This document shows positions 7,163-7,606 of a DNA stretch of 64,000 nucleotides, piece after piece; within the stretch, counting starts at the first letter, position 1; each line of letters begins with the position of its first letter. The stretch spans positions 1-64,000 of IMG/VR virus record IMGVR_UViG_3300046002_004363; one strand, given 5' to 3'. The stretch comes from a virus. A program made the position numbers and the translations under genes. The notes under the pieces are model-generated. The model did no database searches and was not told the DNA's origin. It saw nothing but the letters and a program-made list of their open reading frames with translations.

Positions 7163-7170
7163 TATATTTG
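7163..7170 (+). promoter_or_regulatory. Promoter of the 7.2-kb non-coding RNA
   Basis: TATATTTG followed by CAAAGG matches the -7 box used across the window. Transcription would begin near 7176 and run through the tRNA-like element to the T-run at 7452. No TTG is obvious at the -33 position. Confidence 0.5.
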
Positions 7171-7230
7171 CAAAGGTAAAATAGCTAAGCTGTGTAAAGC
7201 GTTCAAACTGATAATTGATTAGAAGCTAAA

Positions 7231-7306
7231 TCCAAAGTAGTGTAACTTGGTAACACAATCAATGGGCAACTGTTGATAAATGAAGTTTCGAATACTTCCT
7301 TTGGAG
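7231..7306 (+). tRNA. tRNA-shaped RNA (Gln-like body) with abnormal anticodon loop
   Basis: The acceptor stem TCCAAAG/CTTTGGA (7231-7237, 7299-7305), U8-A9, the D stem GTGT/ACAC with TTGG in its loop, and the T arm GAAGT-TTCGAAT-ACTTC (7282-7298) are all perfect. The D arm is like that of bacterial tRNA-Gln. The anticodon stem ATCAA/TTGAT closes a 10-base loop TGGGCAACTG that lacks the usual T33 and 7-base length, so no codon can be read in the normal way. It may be a decayed tRNA, or a structured RNA built on a tRNA body. Confidence 0.55.
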
Positions 7307-7358
7307 CATAGTAGTTTTCTTATGATAAAAATCTTTACAAATCCTGTAAGGTAGCTAT

Positions 7359-7425
7359 TCCACTTGGTCGTTTCAACTGACAGTATAAGAAAACGGTTAA
7401 CTCATAATTGACTGTCAAAAGTGGA
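7359..7425 (+). ncRNA. Structured RNA: long two-part hairpin
   Basis: The outer stem TCCACTT (7359-7365) pairs with AAGTGGA (7419-7425), and the inner stem TGACAGT (7378-7384) with ACTGTCA (7411-7417). There is a 12-base asymmetric internal loop and a 26-base terminal loop. It is downstream of the tRNA-like element and probably belongs to the same transcript. No coding frame is present. No RNA family is recognised. Confidence 0.5.
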
Positions 7426-7437
7426 TATGGATTGACT

Positions 7438-7459
7438 GATGGAAAGACATCTTTTTTTT
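7438..7459 (+). terminator. Candidate terminator of the 7.2-kb RNA
   Basis: GATG/CATC (4 bp, loop GAAAGA) followed by eight T at 7452-7459. The stem is short, but the T-run is the longest in the region and precedes a new promoter. Confidence 0.4.
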
Positions 7460-7489: not shown

Positions 7490-7497
7490 TATATTTG
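7490..7497 (+). promoter_or_regulatory. Promoter of the replication initiator gene
   Basis: The -7 box TATATTTG is followed by CAG; TTTG at 7471-7474 may act as a short-spaced -33 element. Transcripts would start near 7503 and carry the structured leader 7507-7606. Confidence 0.6.
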
Positions 7498-7506
7498 CAG
7501 AGCAAT

Positions 7507-7606
7507 CCACTACTTGCAGAGAAAATTTATGCTAAATTAGCAATCCGACAAATCTCAATATAGTGTAGTGGCTGTATTGGGATTTTGTCTTTTTAAAAAC
7601 CACTAC
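7507..7606 (+). promoter_or_regulatory. Attenuator-like leader with repeated CCACTAC and loop GTAGTGG
   Basis: A 14-bp hairpin with one bulge (7547-7560 against 7575-7589) is followed by TTTTT, like an intrinsic terminator, 20 bases before the 7609 start. Its loop contains GTAGTGG (7565-7571). CCACTAC, the perfect complement, occurs twice: at 7507-7513 upstream and at 7600-7606 directly before the ATG. The loop can therefore pair with either one. This suggests switching between two folds that expose or cover the start; no ligand class is recognised. Confidence 0.5.

Follow-up and report, generated by a model that had tools for sequence, protein, structure and literature searches.

A tRNA-like RNA with a sealed lower arm in an exchangeable cassette of Elemovirus-like Flavobacterium phages

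What is an RNA for that has the upper half of a tRNA intact and nothing readable where the anticodon should be? The question is raised by a locus in a stretch of 64,000 nt of phage DNA (hereafter the window), taken from an IMG/VR virus record 99.6 kb long (G000). In its replication region the window shows homology to the Elemovirus phages that infect Flavobacterium sp. BAL314, and by sequence we assign the window to an Elemovirus-like Flavobacterium phage. The last ~35 kb of the record (65010-99574) are collinear with the first ~35 kb of the window (3672-34882) at 73-96% identity, and G000 may be an assembly that joins two related phage genomes, or may carry a large duplication. Since the record's end is collinear with its start, the second cassette in G000 is best treated as a sibling allele. 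The IMG/VR records behind the comparisons that follow are partly fragments.

The locus is a cassette in which a promoter element is followed by a folded leader (leader A), the tRNA-like RNA, a pseudoknotted RNA and a terminator. A transcript of ~285 nt from its own promoter is predicted. Its features, all on the + strand, are as follows.

7163-7170, +: Bacteroidetes-type promoter -7 element TATATTTG, here TANNTTTG
7181-7229, +: leader A, a folded 5′ module conserved in 14 contigs of different phages
7231-7306, +: non-decoding tRNA-like RNA (ARAGORN; Rfam tRNA model, 47.3 bits; arm pair check)
7231-7237, +: 5′ strand of the acceptor stem, pairing with 7299-7305 (7/7); discriminator G at 7306
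7240-7256, +: D arm of 4 bp (4/4 in the arm pair check), loop AACTTGGTA
7258-7277, +: lower arm in the anticodon position, an 8-bp stem with a GCAA tetraloop (7266-7269)
7282-7298, +: T arm of 5 bp (5/5), loop TTCGAAT
7314-7425, +: pseudoknotted RNA element, with P1, P2, and P3 pairing kept in 12 sequences
7314-7323/7385-7394, +: pseudoknot P1
7359-7365/7419-7425, +: pseudoknot P2
7378-7384/7411-7417, +: pseudoknot P3
7366-7374, +: conserved bulge GGTCGTTTC of the pseudoknot
7401-7408, +: conserved CTCATAAT of the pseudoknot
7438-7459, +: intrinsic terminator, from the sequence: hairpin GATG-GAAAGA-CATC and T8

ARAGORN, the check proposed in an earlier sequence-only reading of this DNA, reports a single gene in the whole window, at 7231-7307, and labels it tRNA-Ala(ggc). 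The Rfam tRNA model recovers 7231-7306 (E = 5e-9) when the stretch is searched alone; a filtered Rfam search of the whole window missed it. The tmRNA model RF00023 has no match in the window, and true tmRNAs were found in L032, L033, and L054. The acceptor, D, and T arms are perfect, as that reading had held, and have canonical loops, so that the upper part is what a decoding tRNA would have. The molecule carries U1-A72 and G73, and its acceptor strands (TCCAAAG/CTTTGGA) place C3-G70 at the third pair. The alanine identity signal of tRNA-Ala is G3-U70; because this pair is absent, the tRNA-Ala label given in GenBank to the equivalent elemovirus genes is not credible. A role as a decoy for the glutaminyl or alanyl synthetase is likewise not supported, since U1-A72 and G73 are the only features that fit Gln and the Ala pair is missing.

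The lower half is where the molecule departs from a tRNA, although it is only 2 nt longer than normal in the window. The ten bases TGGGCAACTG, previously taken for an enlarged loop, are present at 7263-7272 and lack U33 in the tRNA register, but they are better read as part of a closed arm in which 7258-7265 pair with 7270-7277 beneath a GCAA cap: The stem is lengthened by U-G, G-U, and G-C pairs before the tetraloop closes it. The arm folds at a minimum free energy (MFE) of -7.1 kcal/mol compared with -1.1 for shuffled sequence (z = -4.3), and it takes the same fold in the MFE structures of the whole tRNA-like RNA and of the arm alone. The whole-molecule MFE structure lacks the full cloverleaf; support for the D and T arms comes from the covariance-model alignment and the pair check. 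Under a strict anticodon-arm test (5 bp, a 7-nt loop, U33, a purine at 37, and no Watson-Crick 32-38 pair), the best register has three pairs and no U33. With the anticodon position sealed by the 8-bp stem and GCAA cap, the tRNA-like RNA cannot decode.

We compared the same locus among Elemovirus relatives. The GCAA form occurs in four records (two phages, each present twice), and 64 other Elemovirus records match the locus, with tRNA-Met in those that were read. In isolates on the one host strain BAL314, this slot holds either the GCAA cassette or an ordinary tRNA-Met. When elemoA_7-9A, which has the GCAA form, is compared with three isolates carrying tRNA-Met, 1.5 kb of 5′ flank are 95%-99% identical and the pseudoknot part 98%-100%. 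The 3′ flank is 95%-100% identical to that of two isolates and 54% identical to that of elemoF, which has different genes downstream. The leader and tRNA between these flanks share 52% identity, close to the 47% of shuffled sequence, so that this is a clean replacement and not a decayed copy. A relative with an ordinary loop in this place had been named as the sign of recent decay; the tRNA-Met supplies one in form only, since it belongs to an unrelated cassette.

The odd loop itself is shared without change by the window, elemoA_7-9A, and L014, the last of which has a different upstream context; loop conservation, too, had been put forward as a check. Within the T stem, U53-A61 in the window is replaced by G53-C61 in elemoA_7-9A, a compensatory change that bears out the earlier view of a body under constraint with decoding lost. 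In more distant relatives other tRNA-like RNAs stand before the same pseudoknot, among them Leu-like molecules with a D-loop insert of ~50 nt and molecules with UACUG-loop arms. We also observed a module (module X) in the D loop of Leu-like tRNAs, with a 30-nt invariant core GTGAGTTAAATCGTTAAGGTGTTTAATTCC and a covarying flanking stem (L008 5739-5790; L025, L026, and L028; L046-L048); it appears as well in an RNA that resembles a D arm but lacks the remainder of a tRNA.

We scanned 0.77 Mb on both strands (1.5 Mb) for tRNA upper halves, requiring an acceptor of 7 bp, U8, a D arm containing GG, and a T arm of 5 bp with a canonical loop, and obtained 19 matches, against none in three block shuffles. 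Together with ARAGORN and Rfam, the census of Flavobacterium-type phages comes to ~20 distinct tRNA-like RNAs with an intact upper half, a lower bound. Their lower halves are 20-78 nt long and mostly unreadable. None of the 20 passes the strict arm test, which both tRNA-Mets pass. A looser test (4 bp, U33, and a purine at 37) is passed by five of the 20, compared with 31 of 32 T4 and T5 tRNAs (23/24 in T5, 8/8 in T4). Literature searches returned no description of these tRNA-like RNAs.

The lower halves are exchanged between relatives. At a homologous locus in G008, G011, and G012, the 5′ flank is 90%-99% identical, the D half 96%-100%, and the T half with the 3′ flank 94%-100%, whereas the middle is 46%-53% identical, the same as shuffled middles; the alignments indicate an upper half that is conserved and a lower half that is replaced. 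Lower halves that recur vary by compensation, as in ACATC/GATGT and GTATC/GATAC around UACUG. Over the 20, lower-half folding has a mean z of -1.3, driven by the short ones, and many longer lower halves are no more structured than their shuffles. Two candidate explanations of the lower halves were rejected. As antisense guides, eight lower halves or inserts compared with their own phage genomes gave longest matches at the shuffled level; as small introns, several, at 20-21 nt, fall below normal length, and that of the window exceeds it by just the 2 nt. Ten contigs matching GGTCGTNTCTCTGTAGT (L055-L064) were set aside as chance matches in unrelated sequence, with no tRNA or Rfam hit. In G009 (L068, 49100-49750), a 57-nt tRNA-like RNA without an anticodon arm adjoins one with two T arms.

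The remaining parts of the cassette are also widespread. The promoter and T-run claimed for the RNA were both recovered. Of 18 contexts, some of them mutually related, 14 have TANNTTTG ≤52 nt 5′ of the first RNA element (11 of them at 11-18 nt), against a background of 0.042 per 45 nt. The terminator stem is altered on both sides in the second copy. Leader A pairs through UAGC/GCUA, UAA/UUA, and GC/GC and a covarying 4-bp stem (UCAA/UUGA, CAGA/UCUG, and CGGA/UCCG) that is paired in 100% of cells, with changes on both sides at three of its four pairs. Its 14 contigs are IMG/VR records, some >110 kb, in which it precedes tRNA-like RNAs, tmRNAs, or other RNA; neither its pattern nor the D-loop module has an exact match in GTDB genomes. 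After leader A in L033, and in L032 (2590-2990), an RNA-like stretch of 250-400 nt with repeated CCTTGAGAAA runs up to the tmRNA and has no Rfam match. A second self-contained folded 5′ module, leader B (L005 4078-4145; also L020, L036, and L049), covaries at AAGG/CCUU and GCUUAU/AUAAGU and is placed before tRNA-Met, before leader A, or alone before a gene.

The structured RNA downstream, described earlier as a second hairpin, is indeed there but is a pseudoknot. In 12 sequences segmented by hand, 276 of 277 P1, P2, and P3 pairs are kept; pairing 5′ strands with the 3′ strands of other groups yields 47%. Two unpaired motifs, TGRTYGTNTC and YUCAURAU, are conserved. Neither the pseudoknot nor leader A matches any Rfam family. 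The group I intron core RF00028 has no match to the pseudoknot at E up to 5, although at 92-95 bits the model identifies group I introns beside or within tmRNA genes of Flavobacterium-type phages (L038 10151-10375 and L041 3280-3538). CTCATAA in the window pseudoknot can form a hairpin of 5 bp with a 7-nt loop like the anticodon loop of tRNA-Met; we dropped this candidate mimic because the hairpin stem is lost in L019, L023, L025, and L026, where only YUCAURAU is kept. Beyond the terminator, at 7495-7600, the 5′ leader of the replication operon has a loop CCACTAC (7502-7517) that can kiss a GTAGTGG loop in a hairpin resembling a terminator (7547-7589). The two loops covary among relatives (GTGGAGG/CCTCCAC, GTGAGAGC/GCTCTCA, and GGTGAGATG/CATCTCAC), and this looks like a family of regulatory leaders.

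These comparisons establish how the RNA is built, that its upper half is constrained, and that relatives exchange lower halves as well as entire cassettes. Unrelated lower halves at this and equivalent sites suggest a use of the tRNA shape outside translation. In a tRNA, the upper half alone is what RNase P, tRNA 3′ processing, and CCA addition recognize. We tentatively favor an account, plausible rather than probable, in which acceptor stem, D arm, and T arm form a conserved scaffold and an exchangeable lower domain replaces the anticodon arm, in the window allele as a sealed hairpin with its GCAA tetraloop. The tRNA-like RNA would be transcribed as the middle part of the ~285-nt RNA; the three host activities would mature and stabilize it and would separate it from the pseudoknot RNA. 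Its lower half, or else the intact acceptor and elbow, would then engage a host factor, most likely a tRNA-targeting defense protein. Phage tRNAs are known or proposed to counter such defenses (PMC10264068; PMC11555353). A target of this kind would explain why alleles turn over in phages that share a host, a pattern that fits an arms race, and a decoy for a tRNA-targeting toxin, as already proposed, is possible. Against counter-defense stands the decoding that known counter-defense phage tRNAs retain and the window RNA has lost; moreover, the scaffold account leaves the pseudoknot partner unexplained, and part of the variation may be neutral, given the many long lower halves with structure at the shuffle level. 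A more far-reaching version, unlikely in its entirety, would place in Flavobacterium phages a fast-evolving family of RNAs built on a tRNA scaffold, whose swappable domains each antagonize a different host tRNA-binding defense factor, with the new pseudoknot RNA as constant partner.

The main rival is that the tRNA shape serves only to mark the transcript for a cut that releases the pseudoknot RNA or an mRNA, while the lower arm drifts. A processing signal had been listed as a possibility before, and it would suit a slot that takes any tRNA shape (tRNA-Met, the GCAA form, Leu-like molecules with inserts) while the pseudoknot stays, as well as the position of the tRNA-like RNA directly 5′ of a gene in G008, G011, and G012. 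The many long lower halves that fold no better than chance keep it alive. We nevertheless consider it rather unlikely: Drift should give point changes and would not replace everything between two identical halves, the GCAA arm folds strongly, and lower arms recur across different phages with conserved loops and changed stems. Decay of a tRNA gene could likewise account for the loss of decoding, and relatives do have a normal tRNA-Met in the slot, but a relic is very improbable when perfect upper halves occur at ~20 loci and in no shuffle, the T stem changes by compensation, the same loop appears in three diverged contexts, and the tRNA-Met is an unrelated cassette. Nor does the tRNA-Ala call of ARAGORN and the GenBank records make a working tRNA with an odd loop anything but a negligible prospect, with U33 and G3-U70 missing, the loop sealed, and the canonical-arm test failed that 31 of 32 T4 and T5 tRNAs pass.

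Two further readings look to the neighbors of the tRNA-like RNA. It lies ~300 bp 5′ of replication genes in the window (ORFs of 318 and 615 aa from 7609) and in the equivalent place in elemoviruses, and might be a cis-acting leader that regulates them. We give this a small chance, because the terminator and a new promoter-like element with its structured leader (~7495-7600) intervene, and related tRNA-like RNAs precede quite different genes; for the specific regulation of the downstream replication genes suggested earlier, we found no evidence. Alternatively, the pseudoknot might be a self-cleaving ribozyme that trims the tRNA 3′ end, as it sits directly 3′ of a tRNA shape in Bacteroidota phages like theta ribozymes (PMC10879173). 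This is highly doubtful: P1 starts 8-15 nt past the tRNA (8 nt after G73 in the window, ~15 in L019) and not ≤5, the strand order is unlike the HDV fold, with no P3 hairpin between P2 and P1′, and there is no Rfam HDV hit.

Annotation still assigns no function to the tRNA-like stable RNAs of T5, and the window offers the same kind of molecule in a compact, well-bounded cassette. Near-isogenic phages that differ by this cassette on one host, together with hypervariable alleles, make its function directly testable. Because annotation tools label such genes tRNA-Ala or tRNA-Leu, counts of phage tRNAs may be inflated by non-decoding RNAs.

ToxI is a short tandem-repeat pseudoknot, and we saw no repeat or toxin link in the window RNA. 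In principle only, the window RNA resembles the phage PhiTE RNA that mimics such a pseudoknot antitoxin and neutralizes a host toxin (PMC3475682). Theta (HDV-like) ribozymes next to phage tRNAs, proposed to trim the tRNA 3′ end, share with the window a pseudoknotted RNA after a tRNA in Bacteroidota phages but differ in how the strands are ordered, in how far they lie from the tRNA, and in which sequence is conserved (PMC10879173). The nested order P1-P2-P3-P1′-P4-P2′ does not occur in the window pseudoknot, which has no hairpin between the P3 5′ strand and P1′ and has an extra one between P1 and P2. Defense-resisting phage tRNAs are likewise products of a phage tRNA gene, with changes in the anticodon loop in one case (PMC10264068), but they keep decoding and replace the tRNAs that are cut (PMC10264068; PMC11555353). 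T5 and T4 offer the closer parallels. In T5 (AY543070), RNA1 and RNA2 are annotated as "tRNA-like stable RNA with unknown functions," and on their sequences they are a precedent for the window RNA. RNA1, like the window RNA, has a canonical T arm toward the 3′ end, near-complementary acceptor strands, and an expanded noncanonical middle, with a Leu-type D arm (GGAATTGGTAGACGG); RNA2 has two T-arm-like hairpins, as at the G009 locus. They differ in being 144 and 125 nt long and inside a large tRNA cluster, whereas the window RNA has 76 nt and an arm closed by GCAA, follows a separate leader, is accompanied by a covarying pseudoknot, and has hypervariable relatives. In T4 (AF158101), RNA C and RNA D are the species 1 and 2 small stable RNAs, both inside the tRNA cluster. 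Our scan found no T arm in RNA D; RNA C, like the window RNA, has one toward the 3′ end (CCGGG TTCGAAT CCCGG) and also a long lower domain, but the scan found no strict acceptor pairing for it. Judged by its predicted anatomy, an upper half joined to a noncanonical lower half, the window RNA groups with T5 RNA1 and RNA2 and T4 RNA C.
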